Positions 1 through 42,134 of a stretch of DNA of 42,134 nucleotides are shown piece by piece (the stretch's first letter is position 1; each line of letters opens with the position of its first letter). This DNA comes from a virus: the IMG/VR virus record IMGVR_UViG_3300044634_000285, positions 1-42,134 of that record. One strand, given 5' to 3'. The position numbers were made by a program, and so were the translations under genes. The notes beneath the pieces are model-generated. The model searched no databases. It worked only from the letters and a program-made list of their open reading frames with translations, and was not told the origin of the DNA.

Positions 1-127
1 ACTAACGGATTCTCCATGTCTGACGCTATTGGCGACTACTTAAACAGTATCGCGCGGTATCCATTACTCACACCGCAACAAGAGATACAACTTGGCCGCC
101 GAGTTTCAAAGTGGAGAGAATTAAAGG
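1..127. repeat. 127-bp terminal direct repeat, left copy
   Basis: Bases 1-127 are identical, base for base, to 42008-42134. The repeat covers the start of the sigma-factor gene. An exact 127-base overlap is what a de Bruijn assembler running at k=127 leaves on a circular contig, so it most likely marks circular closure (circularly permuted or circular DNA). A true short terminal repeat cannot be excluded from sequence alone. Confidence 0.95.
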
Positions 128-942
128 ATCTTGAAAGACCTTTAACAACACAAGAACGCCGCGAGCTACGCAGCGGTGAGCGCGCGCGGCAAAAGTTCAT
201 GCAATCCAACCTGCAGCTTGTAGTGCATGTTGCACGCAAGTACAGCAGGCGCAACACGCAAACGCTTGACATGCTGGATCTGATCCAAGAAGGTAACATC
301 GGCCTTGCGCGCGCGGTTGAGCTGTTTGACTACACTCGCGGGTATAAGTTCAGCACCTACGCCTACTGGTGGATCCGCCAATCCATCGGGCGTGCATTGA
401 TTCAATACGATCCAATCATCAGGCTGCCGCTTGGCGTGCATGAAATGCTGATCAAGCTCAACAAGACAGCGCAAGCATTTGCGCAAGAGCACGGACGCAC
501 GGCAACCATGGCGGAGCTTGCTGCAGTGCTTGATGTGACTCCCAAGATGATATCTGACACGCTGCAACAGGCTTATCGGGTAACAAGCCTTGATAAACCT
601 GCACAAGATGAATCATCTAACATTCTTGACATCATTGCCGATAAAAGACAATACGACGTTGAATACGATTGGCAACTTGAAACGGTGCGCGACTATTGCG
701 ATGAGCATTTAGATGATCGCACTCGTGAAATCATCTATGCACGCAACAGTCGCAATCCAGTGCCATGGAATGACCTAGAAAAACGCATGGGCCTATCACG
801 TGCGCGCATGTGTGAAATACAAAGGCGTGGCATCAGCCGCCTTCGTATGCTGATAGGCAACCCGCTGGCAGGCACCCCACTTGGCGCCAACAATACAGAA
901 AGTCGGGAACGTCTGGAGGGTCTGCCTAGCGGGAATGTGTAA
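16..942 (+). CDS. sigma-70 family RNA polymerase sigma factor, cyanobacterial type
   Basis: 308 aa. It should bind host core RNA polymerase and direct it to a set of promoters. Region 1.2 lies at about residues 4-30 (DYLNSIARYPLLT), region 2 at 58-130 with the melting and -10 helix (FSTYAYWWIRQSIGRA), region 3 at 135-195 and region 4 at 222-280. The order and the DYL..I.R.PLLT start are those of cyanobacterial group 1/2 sigma factors, without region 1.1. The Y, WW and Q residues of the -10 helix are kept, but the usual ATWW is AYWW and the usual Thr after QxI is Gly. The -35 helix is diverged: SRARMCEIQ where primary factors have TRERIRQIE, which changes several DNA-contacting positions. It is the last plus-strand gene before a convergent HNH gene. 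The family is certain; a late-gene role is inferred. Confidence 0.93.
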   Translation: MSDAIGDYLNSIARYPLLTPQQEIQLGRRVSKWRELKDLERPLTTQERRELRSGERARQKFMQSNLQLVVHVARKYSRRNTQTLDMLDLIQEGNIGLARAVELFDYTRGYKFSTYAYWWIRQSIGRALIQYDPIIRLPLGVHEMLIKLNKTAQAFAQEHGRTATMAELAAVLDVTPKMISDTLQQAYRVTSLDKPAQDESSNILDIIADKRQYDVEYDWQLETVRDYCDEHLDDRTREIIYARNSRNPVPWNDLEKRMGLSRARMCEIQRRGISRLRMLIGNPLAGTPLGANNTESRERLEGLPSGNV

Positions 943-32470: not shown

Positions 32471-34725
32471 CCTACCAACAGTTCCTAGCTTCCAAATCCA
32501 CTGCAGCACCTGTTGCCGGCTTTGACCCGCAGCAGTTCACCGCGCCGCTGTTCCCGTTTCAGCGGGACATCGTGACCATGGCTTGCCGCGTTGGCAAGTT
32601 CTGCATCTGGGCCGACTGCGGCATGGGTAAAACCGCCATGCAGCTCGAATGGGCGCATCAGGTGCATCAGCACACTGGCGCCAACGTGCTAGTGCTGGCA
32701 CCGCTTGCCGTTGCACACCAGACCGTGCGCGAGGGCAGCAAGTTCGGCATCCCATGCTCGTTCGCTGCCACGCAGGCCGAGGTCAAGCCCGGCATCACAG
32801 TCACCAACTACGAAAAGCTGAGCCACTTCGACCCATCCGCATTCGATGGCGTGGTGCTAGATGAGAGCAGCATCCTCAAGGCATATACGGGCAAGATCCG
32901 CAATCAGATCATCGAGTCGTTCAGCCTCACTCCATACCGCCTGGCCTGCTCAGCCACACCAGCACCCAACGACCACATGGAGCTTGGCAACCATGCCGAG
33001 TTCATCGGCGTGATGACCCGCACCGAGATGCTGGCCATGTTCTTTGTGCATGACGGCGGCGACACCGCTAAGTGGCGACTCAAGGGTCACGCGCGGGACA
33101 AGTTCTGGGAGTGGGTCTGCAGCTGGGCAGTGACCATCCGAAAGCCATCAGACCTTGGCTACGAGGATGGCAACTTCGTGCTGCCGGCGCTGCAGATCCA
33201 AGACTGCACGGTCGAGACACCACGCGAGGCAACTGCGGGTGACGACGGCCAGATGGCGCTGTTTGCCATGGAGGCCCGCACGCTCAACGACCAACGCAAG
33301 GTGCGCAAGGCATCGCTCGCTCTCCGCGTGGCCGCTGCCGCCAAGCTGGCCAACAGCAACACCGATCAGTGGCTGGTGTGGTGTGATCTCAACGATGAGA
33401 GCAAGGCGCTGACTGCGGCTATCAATGGCGCGGTTGAGGTGTCAGGCTCGGATTCTGACGACCACAAGCGGCAGGCCGCCATTGACTTCCAAGACGGCAA
33501 GATCCGCGTACTGGTCAGCAAGCCCAGCATCTTTGGCTTTGGCCTTAACTTCCAGCGCTGCCACAACGTCGCATTCGTTGGACTGTCGCATAGCTATGAG
33601 GCGTTCTATCAGGCCATCCGTCGATGCTGGCGATTCGGGCAAGAGCAGCCCGTCAACGCTCACATCATCTACGACGTAGCAGAAGGCCGCGTGATCGACA
33701 ACATCCGCCGCAAAGAGGCGGACAGCATCCAGATGGCTCAATCAATGGTTGAAATCATGAAGCAACAAACCATGGAACAACTCAAAAAGATCCAACGTCA
33801 AGTGGCGCCGCACATCACTGAGCACAAGTCCGGCGATGGATGGGATATGTATATGGGCGACTGCGTGGAGAGCATTAAGCAGCTCGACAGCGACTCCATC
33901 CATTACAGCATTTTCAGCCCACCGTTTGCGTCGCTCTACACCTACTCCAATAGCGACCGCGACATGGGCAACAGCCGCACCGAGCAGGAGTTCTTCGATC
34001 ACTTTGGATTCCTTGCTAGTGAGCTCCACCGCGTGATGATGCCCGGCCGGCTGATCAGCTTTCACTGCATGAATCTGCCCAGCAGCAAGGAGCGCGATGG
34101 TTTCATTGGTGTGAAGGATTTCCGCGGTGACATGCTGCGCATCTTCCAGGCTGCTGGTTTTGTCTTCCATAGCGAGGTGTGCATCTGGAAGGATCCGGTC
34201 ACTGCCATGCAGCGCACCAAGGCAATCGGCCTGCTGCATAAACAAGTGCGTAAGGATTCAGCACTCAGCCGCCAAGGCATTCCCGACTACCTCGTGACCG
34301 TGCGCAAACTGGGCGACAACCCCGAGCCGGTGGCCGGCCCGTTCACGGAGTTTGCCGGTGAAAATCCACCATCCAAAAGCGGCGACCCGATCAAGGACTC
34401 GATCAACATCTGGCAGCGTTACGCCAGTCCGGTGTGGATGGATATCAACCCATCAGACACGTTGCAATACCGCAGCGCACGCGCCAATGAGGATGAGCGT
34501 CACATCTGCCCGCTGCAGCTGGAGGTGATCCGCCGCGGCCTGCAGCTATGGAGCAACCCTGGCGACGTGGTGCTGTCGCCGTTCGCCGGCATCGGCAGTG
34601 AGGGTTACTGCAGCATCCAAGCCGGGCGCCAATTTGTCGGCTTTGAGCTGAAGCCGTCGTATTTCAACTGCGCGGTCAAGAACCTGGCTGAAGTAGTCAG
34701 CAACCGTCAAGGAGTGCTGGTGTGA
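32467..34725 (+). CDS. SNF2-type helicase fused to a beta-class DNA methyltransferase
   Basis: 752 aa. Residues about 20-430 are an SF2/SNF2-like translocase: Walker A ADCGMGKTA near 50-58, motif II VVLDESS near 130, SATPAP near 162 and motif VI QAIRRCWRFGQ near 382. Residues 450-752 are a methyltransferase in the beta order: motif IV IFSPPF near 480, and motif I LSPFAGIGSEG near 702 followed by FVGFELKPSYFNCA. SPPF favours N4-cytosine or, less likely, N6-adenine. No nuclease motif is present, so this is not a complete restriction enzyme. Possible roles are protection of phage DNA, epigenetic marking during replication, or counter-defence. It overlaps the next helicase gene by four bases. Confidence 0.88.
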   Translation: MTYQQFLASKSTAAPVAGFDPQQFTAPLFPFQRDIVTMACRVGKFCIWADCGMGKTAMQLEWAHQVHQHTGANVLVLAPLAVAHQTVREGSKFGIPCSFAATQAEVKPGITVTNYEKLSHFDPSAFDGVVLDESSILKAYTGKIRNQIIESFSLTPYRLACSATPAPNDHMELGNHAEFIGVMTRTEMLAMFFVHDGGDTAKWRLKGHARDKFWEWVCSWAVTIRKPSDLGYEDGNFVLPALQIQDCTVETPREATAGDDGQMALFAMEARTLNDQRKVRKASLALRVAAAAKLANSNTDQWLVWCDLNDESKALTAAINGAVEVSGSDSDDHKRQAAIDFQDGKIRVLVSKPSIFGFGLNFQRCHNVAFVGLSHSYEAFYQAIRRCWRFGQEQPVNAHIIYDVAEGRVIDNIRRKEADSIQMAQSMVEIMKQQTMEQLKKIQRQVAPHITEHKSGDGWDMYMGDCVESIKQLDSDSIHYSIFSPPFASLYTYSNSDRDMGNSRTEQEFFDHFGFLASELHRVMMPGRLISFHCMNLPSSKERDGFIGVKDFRGDMLRIFQAAGFVFHSEVCIWKDPVTAMQRTKAIGLLHKQVRKDSALSRQGIPDYLVTVRKLGDNPEPVAGPFTEFAGENPPSKSGDPIKDSINIWQRYASPVWMDINPSDTLQYRSARANEDERHICPLQLEVIRRGLQLWSNPGDVVLSPFAGIGSEGYCSIQAGRQFVGFELKPSYFNCAVKNLAEVVSNRQGVLV

Positions 34726-36068
34726 TGCAACTTCGCCCCTACCAACAACAACTCATCAACGACATCCGACTGCAGTACCAGCTAGGGCATAAATCTGTGC
34801 TTGCGGTGCTGCCCACCGGAGGCGGCAAGACGGTGTGCTTTAGCTACATCGCAGAGCAAGCCAGCCGCAAAGGCAACCGCGTGCTGGTGCTGGTGCACCG
34901 GCAGGAGCTGCTGGATCAAGCCAGCCGCGCTATGCCCATGCCGCATGGCCGTATCAGTGCTGGCCGCAGCATGGATCTCAGCTATGCCGTGCAGATTGCC
35001 AGCGTGCAAACCGTTGCCCGCCGGCTGCACCTGCTGCCGCGTGATTTCTTCCAGCTTCTAGTGGTCGATGAGGCACACCACACCACGGCTGGCACGTGGG
35101 CCAAAACGGTTCAGCACTTCCATAACGCCAAGCTGCTCGGCGTAACTGCAACACCGATCCGCAGCGATGGCCGCGGTCTTGGCGAGCACTATCAATCCAT
35201 GGTGCAAGGGCCAACATCGCAGCAGTTGACGGATGCTGGCTTCCTTGCGGCTGCCAAGGTGCTGGCACCGCCGGGCTTTGACTCAACCGGCCTACGCAAG
35301 CGGATGGGTGATTTCGACCCCAAGGAGGCTGAGCAGCGCGTCGGCACGATCATGGGTGATTGCCTTGGCCACTACCGCAAGCACCTGCCAGGCCAGACGG
35401 CGATCGCGTTCTGCTGCTCAGTGGCGCACGCGGAGGCAGTGGCAGCACTCTTCCAGTCAGCAGGCATCGCCGCGGCCAGTATTGACGGCAGCATGGATAC
35501 CACGCAGCGCCGGCAGTTGCTCAGCGATCTGGGCACCGGCAAGCTCAAAGTGCTGACATCCTGCGCATTAATCGGTGAAGGCGTGGACGTGCCATCAGTG
35601 GGCGGCTGCATCCTGCTCAGGCCTACTGCATCAGTGGCGCTGCATCTACAGATGATCGGTCGCTGCCTGCGCCCGCAACCCGGTAAGCGTGCAGTGGTGC
35701 TCGATCACGTCGGCAACACGCTCAGGATGGGACACCACTTAGAACCACGAGACTGGACCCTGGATGGCCTTAAAAAACGCGACCGCGAGCAGGCGCCATC
35801 GGTCAAGGTCTGCCCGCAATGCTTCGCCACTAGTGCCAGTGCGGTGCAGGTATGCCGCGAATGCGGTCATGTGTTTGCGCCGCAGGAACGCCGTGAGCTG
35901 CAGCAGGTTGATGGGGAGTTGCAGGAGTTGGCAGTGGCTAAGCGGCGTGAGCAATCCTCAGCCCGCGACCTGGATGCACTCCGCGAGCTAGCGCAGCAAC
36001 GCGGCTACAAGCGAGGATGGGCGGAACGTGTCTACCAGGCGCGACTGGCTAAGCGTTACGGCGGGTGA
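34722..36068 (+). CDS. DEAH-box SF2 helicase with C-terminal zinc ribbon
   Basis: 448 aa. Helicase motifs: Q-motif region RPYQQQLINDI, Walker A LPTGGGKT near 30, DEAHHT near 116, TATPIRSD near 143 and motif VI QMIGRCLRPQPGK near 310. Residues about 364-385 form a Cys4 zinc ribbon (CPQC, then CREC). The layout resembles UvrB/RAD25-like phage helicases that act in replication or recombination. It follows the helicase-methyltransferase with an ATGA overlap, so two helicases are made together. A promoter for the next gene begins right after its stop. Confidence 0.9.
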   Translation: MMQLRPYQQQLINDIRLQYQLGHKSVLAVLPTGGGKTVCFSYIAEQASRKGNRVLVLVHRQELLDQASRAMPMPHGRISAGRSMDLSYAVQIASVQTVARRLHLLPRDFFQLLVVDEAHHTTAGTWAKTVQHFHNAKLLGVTATPIRSDGRGLGEHYQSMVQGPTSQQLTDAGFLAAAKVLAPPGFDSTGLRKRMGDFDPKEAEQRVGTIMGDCLGHYRKHLPGQTAIAFCCSVAHAEAVAALFQSAGIAAASIDGSMDTTQRRQLLSDLGTGKLKVLTSCALIGEGVDVPSVGGCILLRPTASVALHLQMIGRCLRPQPGKRAVVLDHVGNTLRMGHHLEPRDWTLDGLKKRDREQAPSVKVCPQCFATSASAVQVCRECGHVFAPQERRELQQVDGELQELAVAKRREQSSARDLDALRELAQQRGYKRGWAERVYQARLAKRYGG

Positions 36069-36070
36069 GG

Positions 36071-36099
36071 TTGCGCACGGCTGAGCATGGTGGTATGAT
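36071..36099 (+). promoter_or_regulatory. promoter A for the 90-residue gene
   Basis: TTGCGC, 17 bases, TATGAT. It shares GGTTG..CACGGC.G.GCATGG with promoters B and C. The transcript should begin near 36106, immediately before a 5-bp hairpin. Confidence 0.72.
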
Positions 36100-36108
36100 T
36101 TGGGGACA

Positions 36109-36140
36109 GCAGGCAACACCTGCACCCCACACCGAGAACC
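36109..36140 (+). promoter_or_regulatory. 5' hairpin and conserved leader A
   Basis: GCAGG, CAACA, CCTGC at 36109-36123 is the likely extreme 5' end of the mRNA. Next comes CACCCCACACCGAGAACC, which is nearly identical to the leader of the 64-residue gene (C). A weak GAG is the only ribosome-binding element. Confidence 0.7.
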
Positions 36141-36413
36141 ATGACCCGCGCCTCCATCACCGCCAATATGACCGCCGCTGAACTGGCTGCATGGAAGGCA
36201 AACAACTGCAAGCAATCCAGCATCCAGGTTGTGATCACTGCACGCCGTAATCCTGCACGCAAGTCACAGCGTCAAGAATGGCAAGAGTTCCGCAACGAGA
36301 CTTTGGGCATGATTGAAGCCGCCAAGCGCGAGCGCCACTTCCACATCCTGCCGCAGCTCTTCCAGCGCCTCAACACCGCCAACGAAATGCTGGCTAACGC
36401 CTGCATCAACTGA
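36141..36413 (+). CDS. 90-residue protein with its own promoter and terminator
   Basis: The N-terminus MTRASITANMTAAELAAWKA leads into a basic middle (ARRNPARKSQRQEWQEF) and a helical C-terminus (HFHILPQLFQRLNTANEML). The gene is bracketed by promoter A and an intrinsic terminator (36423-36443), making a single-gene unit, which is unusual in this tightly packed genome. Such units in phages often encode abundant host-takeover or DNA-binding proteins. Function unknown. Confidence 0.75.
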   Translation: MTRASITANMTAAELAAWKANNCKQSSIQVVITARRNPARKSQRQEWQEFRNETLGMIEAAKRERHFHILPQLFQRLNTANEMLANACIN

Positions 36414-36422
36414 ACTGAACCG

Positions 36423-36443
36423 GGGCGCTACGGCGCCCTTTTT
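36423..36443 (+). terminator. intrinsic terminator
   Basis: GGGCGC, loop TACG, GCGCCC, then TTTTT. It closes the 90-residue gene ten bases after its stop and four bases before the next ATG. Confidence 0.88.
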
Positions 36444-36446
36444 GCT

Positions 36447-36677
36447 ATGCGCTTCACTCACGAACAATACCGAGCGCAGGGTCTTTTCCCGCCTTGCCCT
36501 AAAGCTGTCTACATTCCAAGCTCATCCCCTATAAGGGCTGGTGACATGTGGCAACCAGACGACACGCTTGATCAGTTTGTTGCATGGGAGCAGCATTGCA
36601 TGGCAACCGGCGGGGTGTGGACTGTGCGCCTTTGGTGGGTGCCTGTATCTGAGCTGCCGATCCAACCATTGCCTTAG
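36447..36677 (+). CDS. 76-residue protein of unknown function
   Basis: Reads MRFTHEQYRAQGLFPPCPKA, then a Ser/Pro linker, then MWQPDDTLDQFVAWEQHCMA and VWTVRLWWVPVSELP. It starts four bases after a terminator, so translation from 36447 would need read-through. An alternative start at the ATG 36546 (44 aa) has an AAGG at a suitable distance and a TATAAG box just upstream. No family recognised. Confidence 0.55.
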   Translation: MRFTHEQYRAQGLFPPCPKAVYIPSSSPIRAGDMWQPDDTLDQFVAWEQHCMATGGVWTVRLWWVPVSELPIQPLP

Positions 36678-36701
36678 CCTGCCGCCAGCAGTAACGCGGC
36701 A

Positions 36702-37055
36702 GTGACCGAGCAGCAAATCCAGCAACAGATCCGCATTGCCTGCAGCAACGGTGACACGCGCCTGTTCCGCAATAACACCGGCACGCTCAAGGACCAGAAT
36801 GGCCGCCCCGTGCAGTTCGGCCTATGCAAGGGCAGCGCTGACCTGATCGGCTGGAAGCGCGTCACCGTGACCGAGGAGATGGTCGGCACCCAAGTGGCGG
36901 TGTTCCTATCTATAGAGGTGAAGACCCCCACCGGAAGGCTGCGCCATGAGCAGCAGCAGTGGTTGGATGCAGTCCAGGCGGCTGGCGGCATTGCCGGCGT
37001 GGCGCGCAGCGTGGAGGATGCAGCGACATTATTAAGAGATGTTGCACACGGTTGA
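36702..37055 (+). CDS. VRR-NUC nuclease
   Basis: 117 aa, GTG start. The PD-(D/E)XK-type VRR-NUC motifs are present: KGSADLIG (Asp47), FLSIEVKTP (Glu72, Lys74) and LRHEQQQWLDAVQAAGG (Gln84-86). Stand-alone phage VRR-NUC proteins are Holliday-junction resolvases or structure-specific nucleases, in keeping with the helicases upstream and the RecE/RecT genes downstream. Confidence 0.88.
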   Translation: MTEQQIQQQIRIACSNGDTRLFRNNTGTLKDQNGRPVQFGLCKGSADLIGWKRVTVTEEMVGTQVAVFLSIEVKTPTGRLRHEQQQWLDAVQAAGGIAGVARSVEDAATLLRDVAHG

Positions 37056-37079
37056 TCAGGGCGGCGCATGGGCTATACT
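37052..37079 (+). promoter_or_regulatory. promoter B before the structured leader
   Basis: TTGATC, 16 bases, TATACT. Spacer CGGCGCATGGG matches promoters A and C. The -35 overlaps the last codons of the VRR-NUC gene. Confidence 0.75.
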
Positions 37080-37313
37080 GGTATCACGAGGGAAGGGAAG
37101 CGGCACCTCGCTAAAAACGCGGCCAGGGGGAACAGAGCACACGACCCCACAATCGAGCTCAACAGGGCCTAAGTAAGCCCGCACCGCCGGTTGGCCCGGC
37201 ACATTATTGATCCTTGAAAACCGAATACTCGCGGGCGTCGTCCCGCTCCGGTGGTGGCCTTCACCCGGCACCCATGAGTCCCGCCGGGGGCTCAACCATC
37301 AACCGGAGATCGC
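37080..37313 (+). ncRNA. structured leader RNA, about 230 bases, possibly a regulatory RNA
   Basis: Between promoter B and the ATG at 37314 no convincing gene is present. The RNA can fold several hairpins: CGAGG/CCTCG (37087-37110, at the transcript start), GGGC/GCCC near 37165-37180, GCCGG/CCGGC with five-base loop (37186-37200), CGGG/CCCG near 37231-37245, and a 7-bp GAGTCCC/GGGGCTC stem (37276-37293, one G-U pair). A 34-codon frame (37068-37172) exists but starts within the promoter. Either a cis-regulatory leader of the 65-residue gene or an independent small RNA. Confidence 0.5.
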
Positions 37314-37511
37314 ATGGACGACATCACCCGCAACGCCCTCGCCTTCGAGGCCGAAACCGCAGCGTTAATCGCTGAGGTGGACGCGGCCTTCGAGGCGTGG
37401 AGCCGCTCCACCGAGCAGCTGCTCACGGTGGCCCAAGAGGCCATCGCGCTAGCTGACTCGATCGAGCACGATCTGGGCAACGCCCAGGCCGCGCTTGAGG
37501 AGTGGTTCTAA
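37314..37511 (+). CDS. 65-residue acidic helical protein
   Basis: Begins MDDITRNALAFEAETAALIA and is a nearly continuous acidic helix (VDAAFEAWSRSTEQLLTVAQ, then DSIEHDLGNAQAALEEWF). Highly acidic small proteins in phages often mimic DNA or bind host enzymes; this is only a thought here. CCGGAGATCGC before the ATG gives a usable ribosome-binding site. It is preceded by a long structured leader and followed by a possible RNA switch. Confidence 0.72.
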   Translation: MDDITRNALAFEAETAALIAEVDAAFEAWSRSTEQLLTVAQEAIALADSIEHDLGNAQAALEEWF

Positions 37512-37567
37512 GGGCATCGCCCCTTCGGGGCGCAAGGATTTAGGCCATAAGCCGGATAGAGCGCCCC
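37512..37567 (+). promoter_or_regulatory. alternative hairpins upstream of the RlpA-like gene
   Basis: Four segments can pair in competing ways: GGGC (37512-37515) with GCCC (37519-37522), CGCCCC (37518-37523) with GGGGCG (37527-37532), or GGGGCGC (37527-37533) with GCGCCCC (37561-37567). This is the layout of attenuators and RNA switches. No U run is visible, so the effect would be on translation or processing. Confidence 0.4.
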
Positions 37568-37590
37568 GGATTCCCATCACCTCAAGCATC

Positions 37591-37905
37591 ATGCGTGCAC
37601 TGATTACCGCAGCAATCTTGCTGCTGTCGCCTGCTCAAGCCCGGCAGGTGACTGCCACCGTCTACGACGGCTGGTATCACGGGCGCACCACGTACTGCGG
37701 CGGCACCTACCGCCACTGGGACGTGTCCGCCGCCCATCCATGGCTGCCATGCGGCACGCGCGTCACGGTGCAACACCGCGGGCGCTTGCTGACTGTACCC
37801 GTCACTGATCGCTGCGACTGCGGATCGCTGGATCTCAGCGCTGGCGCTGCCTACCGACTAGGCGTGCCACTAGATGGCATCGCAACTGTGTCGATCCGTT
37901 ACTAG
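37591..37905 (+). CDS. exported RlpA-like double-psi beta-barrel protein
   Basis: 104 aa from the ATG at 37591; an upstream in-frame ATG is absent. Residues 1-18 are a signal peptide (MRALITAAILLLSPAQA, cut before RQ). The rest is an RlpA/expansin-like barrel: ATVYDGWYHGR, YCGG, WDVSAAHPWLPCGTRVTV, VPVTDRCDCGSLDLSAGAA with Asp73 and Asp81 as likely acid residues. RlpA proteins cleave or bind peptidoglycan strands. It probably acts in the periplasm on the host wall, late in infection or against superinfection. It is encoded away from the lysis cassette. Confidence 0.82.
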   Translation: MRALITAAILLLSPAQARQVTATVYDGWYHGRTTYCGGTYRHWDVSAAHPWLPCGTRVTVQHRGRLLTVPVTDRCDCGSLDLSAGAAYRLGVPLDGIATVSIRY

Positions 37906-37911
37906 GCATGG

Positions 37912-37939
37912 TTGACCACGGCGGCACATGGTGTAGGAT
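37912..37939 (+). promoter_or_regulatory. promoter C before the membrane HTH gene
   Basis: TTGACC, 16 bases, TAGGAT, with the shared CACGGCGGCACATGG spacer. The transcript should start near 37946 with the GCCGG/CCGGC hairpin. Confidence 0.75.
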
Positions 37940-37947
37940 ACGCACAA

Positions 37948-37978
37948 GCCGGACAACCGGCACCCCAAACCGAGAACC
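37948..37978 (+). promoter_or_regulatory. 5' hairpin and conserved leader C
   Basis: GCCGG, ACAA, CCGGC (37948-37961), then ACCCCAAACCGAGAACC before the ATG. Compared with leader A, the stem sequence differs on both sides in step (GCAGG/CCTGC versus GCCGG/CCGGC), so the pairing is conserved. Confidence 0.7.
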
Positions 37979-38173
37979 ATGCTCACAACCGCACTGCTAG
38001 TTATCTGGAAACTGCTGCTGCCACTGCTGGTAGTAGTCGCCGTGATCGACTGGCTCACCGCCTCAGATGACCGCCGCATCCGCGTATTGCGCCGCACTGG
38101 CCTGAGCCAGAAGCGCATTGCCGATCGCCTCAATCTGTCCACCTATCGCGTCCGTAAGGCGCTGATGGCATGA
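37979..38173 (+). CDS. membrane-anchored helix-turn-helix protein
   Basis: 64 aa. Residues 3-24 are a membrane segment (TTALLVIWKLLLPLLVVVAV). The C-terminal 30 residues form a helix-turn-helix (RRTGLSQKRIADRLNLSTYR). The HTH follows a short DDRR linker, so DNA binding at the membrane is possible. Similar small proteins occur in cyanophages. It stands behind promoter C and overlaps the next gene by four bases. Confidence 0.75.
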   Translation: MLTTALLVIWKLLLPLLVVVAVIDWLTASDDRRIRVLRRTGLSQKRIADRLNLSTYRVRKALMA

Positions 38174-38295
38174 ACAATCTGAACCGCTTTGCCGTGCTGG
38201 CAATCATCTTTGGTGTCTGGGCAATGGCCTATGACACCGGACGCCAGCAGCCTGCCTACAGCCATCACGCTTGCCAAGAGCAGCTCAAGCCATGA
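38170..38295 (+). CDS. 41-residue membrane protein
   Basis: Reads MNNLNRFAVLAIIFGVWAMA then YDTGRQQPAYSHHACQEQLK. One membrane segment (6-20) and a short polar tail with one Cys. The tail resembles small spanin-like or lipoprotein-like peptides, but no lipobox is seen at the start. Both ends overlap neighbours by four bases (ATGA). Confidence 0.6.
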   Translation: MNNLNRFAVLAIIFGVWAMAYDTGRQQPAYSHHACQEQLKP

Positions 38296-38492
38296 CAGAA
38301 GCAGACATTTACTGGACATTTGCCACCGCCTACCAGCACGGCGGTGGATTCTTCCAAGCGCTAGCCGCTGCTGGCCTCAAGGCTGATCCCGGCAACAAGC
38401 GCCGCCTGCTGGATGCGTTTCCCGAGCTGGTCGCCACCTACGGCACCGCCAGCCGGATGCACCGCCAGATGCGCAGTGGGGCAGCAACGTGA
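38292..38492 (+). CDS. 66-residue protein of unknown function
   Basis: Begins MTEADIYWTFATAYQHGGGF. It is helical and neutral to basic (ALAAAGLKADPGNKRRLLDA, then ELVATYGTASRMHRQMRSG). It lies in a chain of overlapping small genes leading into the exonuclease. No family recognised. Confidence 0.68.
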   Translation: MTEADIYWTFATAYQHGGGFFQALAAAGLKADPGNKRRLLDAFPELVATYGTASRMHRQMRSGAAT

Positions 38493-39280
38493 CCAGCAAT
38501 GCCGACTACCACGCCGACCCAGCCGTCAGCGCTTCGCACCTGCACGCAGTGGCTAAATCTCCCTACCACTACTTCAGCCGCTACCTCGACCCCAATCGCA
38601 TTGCACCAGAACCCACTGCTGCCATGCGGCTTGGATCACTAGTGCATTGCGCAGTGCTTGAGCCCAGTGAGCTAGCGGGCCGCTATGGCGTCTGCGCTCC
38701 ACGCAACACCAAAGCCGGCAAGGAGCAAGCAGAGCGGATGGCCACTGCTGGCATTGAGGCGGTTGCCGCTGGCGACATGATGGCCGCCAACTGCATGGCC
38801 GACAGCGTGCATCGTCATCCCGCAGCAGCAGCACTGCTTGCCCATGGCAAGGCTGAGCAGTCCTTCTGGTGGGATGACGCCGCCACTGGGCTGCGCTGCA
38901 AGTGCCGCCCCGACTGGCATGACGGCACCACGGTGGTTGACCTCAAGACCACCACGGACGCCAGCCCTGCCGGCTTCGCCCGTAGCGTGGCTACCTTCCG
39001 CTACCATGTGCAAGCGAGCCACTACCTAGCCGGCTTGCACGGTGCTGAGCGGTTTGTGTTCATTGCCGTTGAGAAGACTGCTCCGTACGCGGTTGCGGTC
39101 TACGAGCTTGATGCCGCGGCCATGGCTGCTGGTGATGAGCTACGGCAACGCGACATGCGCGTGATTGCCGACTGCCAAGCCACCAAGGAGTGGCCGGGCT
39201 ACGGCGATCACTGCCAGCCGCTCAGCCTGCCTTCATGGGCATTAACTGCCAACCCAACTATCACATCCGATGACTTCTAG
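38489..39280 (+). CDS. RecE-like PD-(D/E)XK exonuclease
   Basis: 263 aa, GTG start overlapping the previous stop. Motifs of the PDDEXK exodeoxyribonuclease VIII group: LGSLVHCAVLEP (His53), RPDW (Asp142), VVDLKTTTDA (Asp151, Lys153) and HVQASHYLAGL (Gln175, Tyr179). It should resect 5' ends of double-strand breaks to load the RecT-type annealase encoded next, whose start overlaps it by 11 bases. Confidence 0.88.
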   Translation: MTSNADYHADPAVSASHLHAVAKSPYHYFSRYLDPNRIAPEPTAAMRLGSLVHCAVLEPSELAGRYGVCAPRNTKAGKEQAERMATAGIEAVAAGDMMAANCMADSVHRHPAAAALLAHGKAEQSFWWDDAATGLRCKCRPDWHDGTTVVDLKTTTDASPAGFARSVATFRYHVQASHYLAGLHGAERFVFIAVEKTAPYAVAVYELDAAAMAAGDELRQRDMRVIADCQATKEWPGYGDHCQPLSLPSWALTANPTITSDDF

Positions 39281-40022
39281 CATCACGCTCTGGACTCCAG
39301 AGCAAACGCAGCTGATCTCAACCACCATTGCGCCTGGCTGCAGCAATGACGAGTTGCGACTGTTTGCCTACGCCTGCCAGCGCACTGGACTGGATCCGTT
39401 CAGCAAGCAGATTTACGCCATCAAGCGTGGCGGCAAGATGACCATCCAAGCCGGCATTGACGGCTTGCGTGCCATTGCTGAGCGCACTGGGCAACTGGAT
39501 GGCAGCATCACTGAATGGTGTGGTGAAGACGGCCAGTGGACTGACGTATGGCTGGGCAGCAAGCCACCTGCTGCGGCCAAGACCACTATCTGGCGCAAAG
39601 GTGCCAACCATCCATTTACTGGCGTTGCACGCTTTGCTGACTACAACGCCGGTCAAGGCTTGTGGTCCAAGATGGGTGCCGCGATGATCGCCAAATGCTC
39701 TGAGGCATTGGCACTGCGCAAGGCGTTCCCTGCCGACATGTCCGGTGTCTATAGCACCGATGAGATGCAGCAGGCCGAGGTGGAGCCGGTGACCGTTACC
39801 GCTGCACCTGCACCTGCAGGCGACGCCAAACTGTTCCAAGCCGGTAAGGCTGCTATCGCCAAGGCCGACACGCTCGACAAGCTGCAGGAGGTGGTAGCGC
39901 GCATGGATAAGCGCAAGCCTGATCTCAGCGATGAGCAAAACGACGAGTTGCTGCGCCTTGCCGTAGAGCGCGAAGCGGTGCTATCCGACACGCCATCGGA
40001 GGACCCCTTCGCTGATGACTGA
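39270..40022 (+). CDS. bet: RecT/Bet-type single-strand annealing protein
   Basis: 250 aa. The Bet/RecT core spans about 1-165 (LFAYACQRTGLDPFSKQIYA, then RGGKMTIQAGIDGLRAIAER, then GLWSKMGAAMIAKCSEALAL, then RKAFPADMSGVYSTDEM). The C-terminal part is a helical, acidic tail ending EDPFADD. It pairs with the exonuclease for recombination-dependent replication and repair and may assist end joining of concatemers. Confidence 0.9.
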   Translation: MTSSITLWTPEQTQLISTTIAPGCSNDELRLFAYACQRTGLDPFSKQIYAIKRGGKMTIQAGIDGLRAIAERTGQLDGSITEWCGEDGQWTDVWLGSKPPAAAKTTIWRKGANHPFTGVARFADYNAGQGLWSKMGAAMIAKCSEALALRKAFPADMSGVYSTDEMQQAEVEPVTVTAAPAPAGDAKLFQAGKAAIAKADTLDKLQEVVARMDKRKPDLSDEQNDELLRLAVEREAVLSDTPSEDPFADD

Positions 40023-40224
40023 ACCATTCCTCACCACTGACGAACTGGCAGCACGTTGGGGCCTGAAGCCAGCAGCCATCAAAAACCAACGTGCACGCGG
40101 TATTGGCCCTGCTTACGTCACCGCACCACGCATTGGCCTACCAGCTGGCACGCCGCGCGTTCGCTATCCCCTTGCACAAGTCTTGGCTTTTGAAGAAGCC
40201 AATGGCATTACACCACTGAACTGA
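40015..40224 (+). CDS. excisionase/MerR-like HTH protein
   Basis: 69 aa. The start FLTTDELAARWGLKPAAIKN is a winged-HTH_17 pattern as in AlpA/Xis proteins, followed by a wing (RARGIGPAYVTAPRIGLPAG, then VRYPLAQVLAFEEANG). No integrase is present, so a role in gene control or DNA architecture is more likely than excision. It overlaps the annealase gene by eight bases. Confidence 0.8.
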   Translation: MTEPFLTTDELAARWGLKPAAIKNQRARGIGPAYVTAPRIGLPAGTPRVRYPLAQVLAFEEANGITPLN

Positions 40225-40225
40225 A

Positions 40226-40576
40226 ATGAGCCTTTACGCAACCGGCATTGTTCGCATCATCACCGACCCGCAACTACGTGCCTTTGAATCCGGCACCATG
40301 GTTGCCAACTTCGCTGGTGGTATCCAGGAAGGCAAAGACAAAGACGGCAACTGGATTAATAACGCAATCGACTGCGAGATCTGGGGCAAATCTGCTGAGC
40401 TAATCGTCGATAAGCTCAAAAAAGGCGACAGCATCCTTGTGACTGGTGCCGTACGCCGGCAAGAGTGGAACGACAAGGAAACCGGTGCAAAGCGCAGCAA
40501 GCATGTGCTCAGCATCCAGCGCTTTGAATTCATGCCACGCGGCGCAGCAACCACCAGCGAGGAGCCTGTGTTCTGA
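40226..40576 (+). CDS. ssb: single-stranded DNA-binding protein
   Basis: 116 aa. OB-fold strands as in SSB: ATGIVRIITDPQLR, MVANFAGGIQEGKDKDG, WINNAIDCEIWGKSAELIV, and DSILVTGAVRRQEWNDKETG. The C-terminal tail is short and ends TTSEEPVF, acidic with a terminal F as in the tails that bind partner proteins. It sits in the replication-recombination run and ends in an ATGA overlap. Confidence 0.9.
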   Translation: MSLYATGIVRIITDPQLRAFESGTMVANFAGGIQEGKDKDGNWINNAIDCEIWGKSAELIVDKLKKGDSILVTGAVRRQEWNDKETGAKRSKHVLSIQRFEFMPRGAATTSEEPVF

Positions 40577-40731
40577 TGAACGAAACCACACTTGACATTG
40601 CATTCAAGGAGTGGTGGGAGGCGTCCTACGGGCGCCCTCCCGGCACCCATGCAGTGATGACACACGTGGCATTTGCCGCGCATATTCTTGAACTCCTGGA
40701 GCTGACGCAAGATGATCAACCACAAGACTGA
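40576..40731 (+). CDS. 51-residue protein of unknown function
   Basis: Reads MNETTLDIAFKEWWEASYGR then THAVMTHVAFAAHILELLEL. A helical acidic protein with a WW pair. It overlaps the SSB stop by one base and the next start by 20 bases. No family recognised. Confidence 0.65.
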   Translation: MNETTLDIAFKEWWEASYGRPPGTHAVMTHVAFAAHILELLELTQDDQPQD

Positions 40732-40867
40732 ACAGCGCCGTGATGACTACTTGCAGTGGTTGTACGAGCAAAGCGGCCGGACCTGCTGCACCTACACCGG
40801 CTTGTATCAACAGCGCATTGCTGATCTGATCCGCCGCGACATGGCAGAGGCTTTAGGTGATGAGTGA
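40712..40867 (+). CDS. 51-residue protein of unknown function
   Basis: Reads MINHKTEQRRDDYLQWLYEQ then RTCCTYTGLYQQRIADLIRR. A basic, helical protein with a CC pair. It overlaps its neighbours on both sides. No family recognised. Confidence 0.62.
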   Translation: MINHKTEQRRDDYLQWLYEQSGRTCCTYTGLYQQRIADLIRRDMAEALGDE

Positions 40868-41078
40868 TCTTGTCAATCATCCGCCGCATTACAAGCACGG
40901 CGACATTGAGTGCATCCAAGCCATTAAGGCAGCTCTCGGTGATGACGGCTTCCGCGCTTACTGCAAAGGCAACGTCATCAAATACCTGTGGCGCGCTGAG
41001 CACAAAGGCAATGCCGATCAGGATTACGGCAAAGCCGACTGGTACATGCGTACGTTGCTGTTGCATGTAGATGAGTGA
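40860..41078 (+). CDS. DUF3310 protein
   Basis: 72 aa from the ATG at 40860 (a GTG at 40857 is an alternative). The DUF3310 signature is clear: VNHPPHYKHGDIECIQAIKA, then YCKGNVIKYLWRAEHKGN, then DYGKADWYMRTLL. These proteins are widespread in phages near nucleotide and replication genes; function is unknown, with a role in nucleotide metabolism proposed from context only. Confidence 0.9.
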   Translation: MSDLVNHPPHYKHGDIECIQAIKAALGDDGFRAYCKGNVIKYLWRAEHKGNADQDYGKADWYMRTLLLHVDE

Positions 41079-41256
41079 TCCATTTAAGCGCGGCGAGGCA
41101 AACTACGCCGCGTTTCTTACAGAAGATCACGTGCGTGAACTACGCCAGTTGCGTGTTGCTGGTAACAGCTACAGACAACTAGCAGAACGCTACGGCATTG
41201 ACAAAAAACACGCATGGCGCATCTGCCAACGCATTGCATGGAGCTGGCTTGATTAG
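41071..41256 (+). CDS. small helix-turn-helix protein
   Basis: 61 aa. The HTH pattern is LTEDHVRELRQLRVAGNSYR then QLAERYGIDKKHAWRICQR, as in the homeodomain-like group. It overlaps the DUF3310 stop by eight bases. Possibly a transcription factor for the plus-strand genes. Confidence 0.75.
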   Translation: MSDPFKRGEANYAAFLTEDHVRELRQLRVAGNSYRQLAERYGIDKKHAWRICQRIAWSWLD

Positions 41257-41280
41257 CCAGCCTCACTATTTACCCAACCA

Positions 41281-41811
41281 ATGACCATCCTTTGCGACTA
41301 CGAAATCAAAGCGCTGTGCACCGATGGCATGGTGCCAAACTACGACGAGGCATTGATCAATCCCGCCAGCCTTGATCTACGGCTTGGTGACACGATCATG
41401 ATCGAGTCTGCCGAAAACCTAAACATGCGGCCGCTCAGCATTGCAGGACGCACGGCAGAGAATCCGTACGAACTCAAGCCAGGGCAATTCATCCTTGCGC
41501 AGACGATTGAAGTGTTCAACATGCCGGAGAACATTGCCGGCCTGTTCTTCCTCAAGTCAAGTCGCGCACGGGAAGGCTACGAAAACCTGCACGCCGGTTA
41601 CGCAGATCCCGGCTGGCATGGCAGCGTGCTGACCTTGGAGCTGAAGAACTCGCGCCAGATCTTGCCGTTGCCGCTTTGGCCTGGCTTAAAGATCGGGCAG
41701 ATGGTGTTCTTCCGCATGAGCCAGCAGCCGGTGACCAGCTACAGCGTCACAGGCCATTACAACTCAGACATCACGGCGACGGCCTCGAAGCAGTTCCTCA
41801 GCGGCATCTAG
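41281..41811 (+). CDS. dcd: dCTP deaminase
   Basis: 176 aa. Typical motifs: INPASLDLRLGDTIMI, FILAQTIEVFNMPENIAGLF, the SSRAREGYENLHAGYADPG active region and GSVLTLELKNS with the catalytic Glu. It turns dCTP into dUTP, feeding the dTMP pool for phage DNA synthesis. It stands alone from the small HTH gene by 24 bases and is the last plus-strand metabolic gene. Confidence 0.9.
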   Translation: MTILCDYEIKALCTDGMVPNYDEALINPASLDLRLGDTIMIESAENLNMRPLSIAGRTAENPYELKPGQFILAQTIEVFNMPENIAGLFFLKSSRAREGYENLHAGYADPGWHGSVLTLELKNSRQILPLPLWPGLKIGQMVFFRMSQQPVTSYSVTGHYNSDITATASKQFLSGI

Positions 41812-42000
41812 GTGCCACTGCTCTAGACCAGTCCGCAATGCTGCCGACGCTTCCTGCGCAAGCCAGTGGATTTGAGACCGCTGGCTTGCTTCTTGCTCGG
41901 CTAGCAGCAGCGCATATTCCAGCAGTCCGCCCCAATCTGCTGCAGCATGTAACGCACGTAGCTGCGCAGCATTGGCAGCACCGTGGAATTGTGCTTCCAT
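41764..42000 (-). CDS. likely minus-strand gene between deaminase and sigma factor
   Basis: 78 aa from the ATG at 42000 (MEAQFHGAANAAQLRALHAA, then WGGLLEYALLLAEQEASQR, then IHWLAQEASAALRTGLEQWH). A longer frame begins at 42024, inside the sigma start. The protein is helical and reads like a real sequence, while the plus strand between 41812 and 42007 has no convincing gene. Its end overlaps the deaminase gene tail to tail by 48 bases. Function unknown. Confidence 0.58.
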   Translation of the reverse strand: MEAQFHGAANAAQLRALHAAADWGGLLEYALLLAEQEASQRSQIHWLAQEASAALRTGLEQWHLDAAEELLRGRRRDV

Positions 42001-42007
42001 TGTATGT

Positions 42008-42134
42008 ACTAACGGATTCTCCATGTCTGACGCTATTGGCGACTACTTAAACAGTATCGCGCGGTATCCATTACTCACACCGCAACAAGAGATACAACTT
42101 GGCCGCCGAGTTTCAAAGTGGAGAGAATTAAAGG
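42008..42134. repeat. 127-bp terminal direct repeat, right copy
   Basis: Identical to 1-127. It contains the first 112 bases (from 42023) of a second, partial copy of the sigma-factor gene. When the two copies are merged, one continuous gene remains and the map closes to a 42,007-bp circle. Confidence 0.95.

Follow-up and report, generated by a model that had tools for sequence, protein, structure and literature searches.

Cassettes A, B and C and the simple leaders

The viral DNA considered here, IMG/VR record IMGVR_UViG_3300044634_000285, is 42,134 nucleotides long and is referred to as a whole as the window. Its plus strand carries three expression cassettes, A, B and C, in which a promoter (the first at 36,071, the last at 37,912) precedes a leader with a 5' hairpin and a small cargo gene. 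From 32467 onwards the plus strand also holds genes for helicases, a VRR-NUC protein, RecE-like and RecT-like proteins, SSB and dCTP deaminase, and genes for tail, capsid, portal, terminase and endolysin are encoded on the minus strand. The closest cultured phages by DNA are the Synechococcus siphoviruses S-H1, S-LBS1, S-CBS3 and S-CBS1. The host group of the cassette-bearing viruses is the aquatic cyanobacterium Synechococcus, and the clade is that of the cyanosiphophages.

Promoter A (36071..36099) is composed of TTGCGC, the 17-base spacer ACGGCTGAGCATGGTGG and TATGAT, promoter B (37052..37079) of TTGATC, a 16-base spacer and TATACT, and promoter C (37912..37939) of TTGACC, a 16-base spacer and TAGGAT. 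All three, with their common -35 element, spacer and -10 element, start at the positions given in the original prediction, which had been made by reading the letters of the window. The shared spacer was also recovered, but the wording proposed for it, CGGC.G.GCATGG, is only approximate, since the spacer reads GGGCGGCGCATGG in B and CGGCGGCACATGG in C.

Two sets of relatives were used for comparison. The first comprised 80 loci gathered through relatives of the VRR-NUC gene, and the second comprised 111 stretches from a pattern scan of viral contigs, which partly overlap the first set. Because contigs overlap between the scans, the counts of distinct sequences are the figures to use. A weight matrix derived from 57 distinct promoters in the relatives identified sites A, B and C and no others in the 42-kb window; C was the best match (46 bits), and A required the version with a 17-base spacer. 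The matrix found no site on either strand of 1.01 Mb of first-order random sequence with matched dinucleotide composition, and every one of its 141 matches in the first loci was on the gene strand. An ordinary sigma-70 scan of the cassette region picked B and C and missed A. Conservation of the spacer equals that of the hexamers, with positions -20, -19, -16, -12, -10 and -9 (numbered backwards from the end of the -10 hexamer) each conserved in more than 90%. A search with TTGA...TANNNT revealed no such promoter-hairpin cassette in S-CBS1, S-CBS3 and the 13-kb region searched in S-LBS1.

The hairpins proposed to follow the -10 elements were also recovered. Their stems begin 10 (A), 8 (B) and 9 (C) nt downstream, and GCAGG/CCTGC, CGAGG/CCTCG and GCCGG/CCGGC all pair. 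The stem predicted for leader A (36101..36129) is the inner one, GCAGG/CCUGC (36109-36113/36119-36123), and it is surrounded by an outer stem, UGGGG/CCCCA (36101-36105/36125-36129). Leader C contains the hairpin GCCGG-ACAA-CCGGC (37948..37961), after which an A/C-rich pad, ACCCCAAACCGAGAACC (37962..37978), extends to the AUG. The pad of leader A (36124-36140) has the same length and a nearly identical sequence, and both leaders have the common ending CACCCCA.ACCGAGAACC-ATG that had been described for them. The predicted folds have energies of -16.2 kcal/mol for leader A (z -4.2) and -9.4 kcal/mol for leader C (z -2.9), within a range of z from -2.8 to -4.2 for the simple leaders tested.

This arrangement is kept in the relatives, where the stems differ and stay paired, as the original prediction had described for the three leaders; a loss of the pairing in relatives was an outcome that it had named as refuting. 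A strong stem began no more than 16 nt after the -10 element in 91% of 94 distinct leaders, as compared to 18% of shuffled sequences. The stems of simple leaders fell out of register in a MAFFT alignment, and pairing was therefore tested by re-dealing the 3' arms among 54 simple leaders, whereby full 5-bp pairing decreased from 57% to 17%, with no more than 30% in any of 500 trials. The stem mostly begins 8-9 nt past the -10 element, which corresponds to about +2 to +3 of the predicted transcription start. That distinct stems keep their pairing and sit near the predicted start supports the hypothesis of selection on RNA structure at the 5' end of the mRNA. The distance from the end of the stem to the AUG is also nearly fixed, at 16-17 nt in nearly all simple leaders and 19 nt in those with a GNRA tetraloop. 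After the pseudoknotted RNA described below it is 20-21 nt, or 112-113 nt where a further segment, module D, lies between, as in the window. The pads, which range from 16 to 21 nt in total, consist of about 85% A+C.

A pseudoknotted RNA in leader B

Leader B had been taken for a further 5-bp hairpin, which turned out to be incorrect. The stem in question, CGAGG/CCUCG, is only the first helix of an RNA of about 115 nt with an H-type pseudoknot core. This helix, P1 (37087..37110), forms the 5' domain, and the core (37125..37200), which shows covariation and scores 92.7 bits with a covariance model, contains P2 (37126-37129/37145-37148), P3 (37135-37138/37157-37160), which crosses P2, P4 (37165-37168/37177-37180) and P5 (37186-37190/37196-37200). 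The order of elements is P2a-GAACN-P3a-ACACGA-P2b-linker-CGA-P3b-AACA-P4 (loop CUNANUAA)-GCAYY-P5 (GCCGG-UUGGY-CCGGC). Folding of leader B as a single sequence was uninformative (z +0.65), which is expected because of the pseudoknot.

Compensatory changes are found in both pseudoknot helices, as expected of an RNA structure under selection. The P5 motif is present in 93 distinct stretches, of which 91 parse as the core; the remaining two are L205, with a shortened P2 arm, and L156, an unrelated chance match. Within the 91 cores, P3 occurs with eight different arm pairs and P2 with 21 (five bases each), nearly all of them complementary. In 35 distinct cores, standard pairs fill 99.5% of the pair cells (81.9% when shuffled), the covariation is 0.406 (0.089 when shuffled), and pairing falls to about 40% if the partners are slid by one base. 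Doubly changed pairs occur at four of four positions in P2 and two of four in P3, amounting to 77 cells against 18.5 in shuffled data. The extremes are represented by S-CBS1, with P2 GUUCG/CGAAC and P3 GAUC/GAUC, and the window, with P2 GGGG/CCCC and P3 GAGC/GCUC. From the sequences it looks likely that the P1 loop also pairs with the linker between P1 and P2 to give a second pseudoknot (GCGG/CCGC, GAGG/CCTC, GGGGA/TCCCC), with a pairing of 12.6 as compared to 11.3 for re-dealt partners (maximum 12.3), but the window's own subtype fits it poorly.

Of 42 large phage records searched with the covariance model, 26 contain a single strong copy each and the other 16, among them S-LBS1 and S-H1, contain no strong copy. 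Candidates for a second copy in two records reached only 24 and 17 bits, versus 75-97 bits, and were rejected. The RNA is present in the cultured phages S-CBS1 and S-CBS3, within unannotated gaps. A wider model search for divergent members in 98 loci gave nothing convincing below the clear matches; a 36-bit match was a copy cut by the end of its locus and a 21-bit match was the chance hit in L156. Comparison of positions 34500-42134 with 4227 Rfam families using cmscan yielded no match at E up to 1. A host origin of the RNA was rejected, as the 27-base P4-P5 pattern found no counterpart in bacterial and archaeal genomes totalling 257 Gb. Our search of the open literature did not recover an earlier report of either the promoter motif or the pseudoknot RNA, and the RNA family is apparently undescribed in the sources searched. 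A tRNA or tmRNA in the leaders was also considered and rejected, as the only ARAGORN call was a tRNA-Leu within the helicase gene on the opposite strand. For a riboswitch expression platform, inspection disclosed no clear maskable Shine-Dalgarno sequence and, in most contexts, no terminator ahead of the cargo, one being seen only in L168 and L170; no systematic search for alternative folds was made.

Exchange of leaders and cargo genes

The search of related phages for the combined motif, which the original prediction had proposed as a check, demonstrated that the design recurs in related cyanophage contigs. We counted 343 instances across the relatives, representing 167 distinct promoter-leader units at 116 loci, with a 16-base spacer in 148 of the distinct units and a 17-base spacer in 19. 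In nearly all of the 80 VRR-NUC loci, inspection showed such a promoter starting close to where the VRR-NUC match ends, no more than a few tens of bases away. In most units, a promoter is followed by a folded 5' block close to the predicted start, then by the pad and the AUG, and the leaders can be grouped by their 5' stems into the types GCAGG, GCCGG, GGAGG, GTCGGGA with a GCGA tetraloop, GGGGGTCC and the pseudoknot RNA. The relation between leader and cargo is many-to-many. A small gene for a putative membrane helix-turn-helix (HTH) protein is found behind five of these leader types as well as an unclassified unit, the cargo MNASDWHNI follows two leader types, and the GCAGG leader heads at least eight unrelated cargo families. 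The cassettes are present or absent in otherwise similar phages and are exchanged as a unit. With leaders and cargo reshuffled on this scale, the comparison provides good support for the idea of a reusable expression module.

Cargo gene A (36141..36413) codes for 90 amino acids, no family being found, and is followed by the intrinsic terminator GGGGCGCTACGGCGCCC-TTTTT (36422..36444), which makes cassette A an apparently complete transcription unit. A terminator was found directly behind 21 of 156 cargo genes, as compared to 2 of 156 in shuffled sequences, and in all 15 testable cassettes with the tetraloop (GNRA) leader. Many cassettes thus seem to be read through into the following genes. Some of them fit the strict idea of a moron, while others seem to feed downstream genes.

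Cargo gene B (MDDITRNAL..., 65 amino acids, 37314..37511) likewise had no family match. It is separated from the pseudoknot RNA by module D (37203..37313, ATTATTGATCCTTGAAAACCGAATACTCGCGGG...), a second conserved leader segment, and the distance from the RNA to the AUG is accordingly about 113 nt in the window, whereas it is about 20 nt in most relatives. In many phages module D (ATTGATCCTTGAAAACCGAATACTCGCGGG...) occupies this place between the RNA and the gene MDDITRNAL; it appears to be structured, with no match in Rfam. Another conserved leader motif, module E (GGCCAYAAGCCGGATAGNGCGCCCCGGATTC, 37543-37572), is located ahead of a gene for a DPBB lytic-transglycolase-like protein. It lies downstream of the pseudoknot RNA in sister phages, and the 5' domain of this RNA in S-CBS1 is formed by a similar segment. 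A leader at L077:6084-6310 with repeated CAYAAGCCGGAUGC...GGCCCGGAG-like units is possibly another structured RNA akin to module E.

Cargo gene C (37979..38173, 64 amino acids) belongs to the commonest cargo family among the relatives. Its product has a hydrophobic N terminus and an HTH, with weak, below-cutoff matches to Sigma70_r4 and HTH_38, and is possibly a membrane-tethered DNA-binding protein.

Expression, regulation and biological meaning

We consider it fairly probable that the cassettes are exchangeable expression units of cyanosiphophages, in which a promoter for the host sigma factor is combined with a 5'-structured leader that protects the mRNA and a bare ribosome pad. This reading builds on the observed conservation of promoters and leaders, the covarying pairing, the near-fixed spacing to the AUG and the swapping of cargo; for the use of host sigma, the timing, mRNA protection, the role in translation and the operator, we infer beyond these. 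The strong near-consensus promoter would be read early in infection, probably by the main sigma factor of the host, and transcription would start a few bases ahead of the folded block. The block may then cap the 5' end of the mRNA against 5'-end-dependent decay of the RppH/RNase E type, and the unstructured A/C-rich pad of 16-21 nt would offer the start codon of the small cargo gene to the ribosome. Recombination would swap leaders and cargo genes as units. Where a cassette occupies the slot behind the VRR-NUC gene, its folded block would often be the larger pseudoknotted RNA, acting mainly as a cis leader, and the conserved spacer may additionally bind a regulator.

A stabilizing role for the 5' stems, also suggested in the original prediction, would agree with what is known of stems at mRNA 5' ends and with the location of these stems at the predicted 5' end. 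In E. coli it is established that 5' secondary structure stabilizes mRNA because neither RppH nor RNase E works without a single-stranded 5' end (PMC3997798). When Prochlorococcus is infected, a cyanophage regulator protein can raise the level of host RNase E (PMC9692554), and by extension to the present phage this would provide a plausible setting for protection.

Several observations weigh against this reading. Most of the phage genes here lack a Shine-Dalgarno sequence, so its absence behind the leaders is not special, and the idea that it signals a role like that of an internal ribosome entry site was dropped. None of the 26 positive records has more than one strong copy of the pseudoknot RNA per genome, while simple leaders recur. 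In L168 and L170, a terminator located directly behind the RNA is followed by a convergent HTH gene and no cargo, which a pure cis leader fails to explain. Finally, the motif co-occurs with a phage sigma gene, occurring in 22 of 28 records with such a gene and in 1 of 14 without it, as would also fit phage-sigma promoters, an association that is confounded by clade and by records chosen partly by the motif.

One hypothesis, compatible with host-sigma expression cassettes and somewhat short of even in our judgement, is that the spacer is the operator of a phage repressor or activator and that the cassettes form one regulon. An operator role, already raised in the original prediction, is possible given that the canonical motif contains by inspection an imperfect dyad, TTGACCACG-N6-CATGGTGTA, matching at 6 of 9 positions. 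A sister lineage has perfect palindromes between the -35 and -10 elements (TACACCGCCGGCGGTGTA in L187 and CACCGTCGACGGTG in several loci). Palindrome arms of at least 6 bases occur in 18% of 84 regions and in 5% of shuffles, a difference that overstates independence because the palindromes are related to one another. However, many canonical sites (TTGATCAGGGCGG..., TTGACAGGGGTTG...) disrupt the left half-site, and no integrase or repressor, CI-like ones included, was recognised among the window proteins tested, which represent part of the open reading frames; the only regulator seen was AbrB-like. The gene for the latter (PF14250, 25878-26198, minus strand) is located beside the large terminase gene. 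The palindromes and the imperfect dyad would fit lineage-specific regulators, short of proof.

More tentatively, the pseudoknot RNA may represent a new phage regulatory class, either a trans molecule or a portable translation or anti-decay element that is independent of the gene behind it, with one copy per cyanosiphophage genome and absent from cellular genomes. In the purely trans-acting version, which we find rather unlikely and yet treat as a serious rival, it would be a non-coding phage RNA, perhaps one that acts on a host protein or the ribosome as decoy or modulator, and would merely be co-transcribed with the next gene. Besides the single copy per genome and the terminators in L168 and L170, which possibly reflect a single event, this version is consistent with the retention of sequence beyond pairing (GAACN, ACACGA, AACA and the CUNANUAA loop). 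The apparently stand-alone RNA at L168:46-480 is convergent to an HTH gene, with a terminator hairpin common to both. A role mainly as a cis leader is favoured on the arrangement of the genes, in that, whatever the gene family, the first open reading frame starts 10-29 nt downstream of the RNA in 60 of the 83 contexts, and in most contexts the AUG lies about 20 nt past P5. Moreover, the RNA is not essential, as it is lacking from 16 of the 42 related records, which counts against the trans hypothesis.

The window also encodes a full phage sigma factor with regions 1.2, 2, 3 and 4 (16..942, plus strand), and it is conceivable, if improbable, that this protein reads the promoters and that the unusual conserved spacer, which is more conserved than some -10 positions, is part of its recognition site. 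Yet the -35 and -10 hexamers are near the host consensus, and TTGAC at -35 suits host sigma. The region-4 helix of the phage protein reads SRARMCEIQ, as opposed to TRERIRQIE in SigA, whereas region 2 is kept; with the difference falling at what we take to be the residues contacting the -35 element, the -35 specificity of the phage sigma is probably altered. Furthermore, S-CBS1, S-CBS3 and S-LBS1 have the sigma factor and lack the motif, only three sites are present in the window, none of them ahead of the structural genes, and the existence of two clades could yield the association between sigma and motif. We favour, with low certainty, the host sigma as the reader. The phage sigma may direct another, perhaps late, set of promoters.

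It is very improbable that the conserved stretches are kept mainly as boundary homology for cargo-swapping recombination rather than for expression: there is strong mosaicism at the cassette junctions and the region adjoins the RecE-like, RecT-like and VRR-NUC genes, but the promoter hexamers and their spacing are conserved, and compensatory stem changes preserve the RNA pairing at the cost of DNA identity, contrary to what selection for sequence homology would produce.

The expression cassettes can be compared with several known systems. The put RNA antiterminators of phage HK022 consist of two stem-loops that act on RNA polymerase; they share with leader B a structured RNA directly downstream of a phage promoter and differ from its H-type pseudoknot and two hairpins. 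The 5'-terminal stem-loops of the ompA/papA type in E. coli (PMC3997798) similarly combine a stem near the predicted 5' end with a single-stranded ribosome site, and vary in sequence with pairing kept. Here, by contrast, the stem is to judge from sequence a standard module, used with one promoter and one pad before unrelated phage genes. Phage morons (PMC7067206 and references there) are likewise small accessory genes in mosaic slots with their own promoter, predicted in our case, and cassette A and the 15 testable GNRA-leader cassettes end in a terminator as morons do. The cassettes differ in that only 21 of the 156 cargo genes mentioned above have a direct terminator and that promoter and leader are shared parts. 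In Cluster K mycobacteriophages, repeated short elements (Start-Associated Sequences, SAS, and ESAS) also mark the starts of a subset of genes in related phages, half of them with upstream inverted repeats; SAS carry AGGAG in a 13-bp repeat at the start codon, and the authors of that study reported little support for RNA pairing of ESAS (PMC3203893). The ACCCCAAACCGAGAACC-like cyanophage pads, in contrast, lack AGGAG and are rich in A and C, and covariation is seen in the pairing. The structured RNA domains manA, wcaG and PhotoRC-II are found in potential 5' untranslated regions of cyanophage genes and are linked to genes for metabolism, exopolysaccharides or photosynthesis, with manA and wcaG occurring in T4-like phages (PMC2864571), whereas leader B matches no Rfam model and has different cargo.

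The pseudoknotted RNA, an apparently undescribed family with strong covariation, is the larger finding of the analysis. Its presence in the cultured phages S-CBS1 and S-CBS3, where the annotation is blank, makes its function directly testable, and the parts described here could serve as ready-made leaders in cyanobacterial expression work. For the biology of the cyanosiphophages, our findings would mean that one group of phages expresses interchangeable accessory genes by means of a standard part that unites a promoter design, a folded mRNA cap and a bare ribosome pad.

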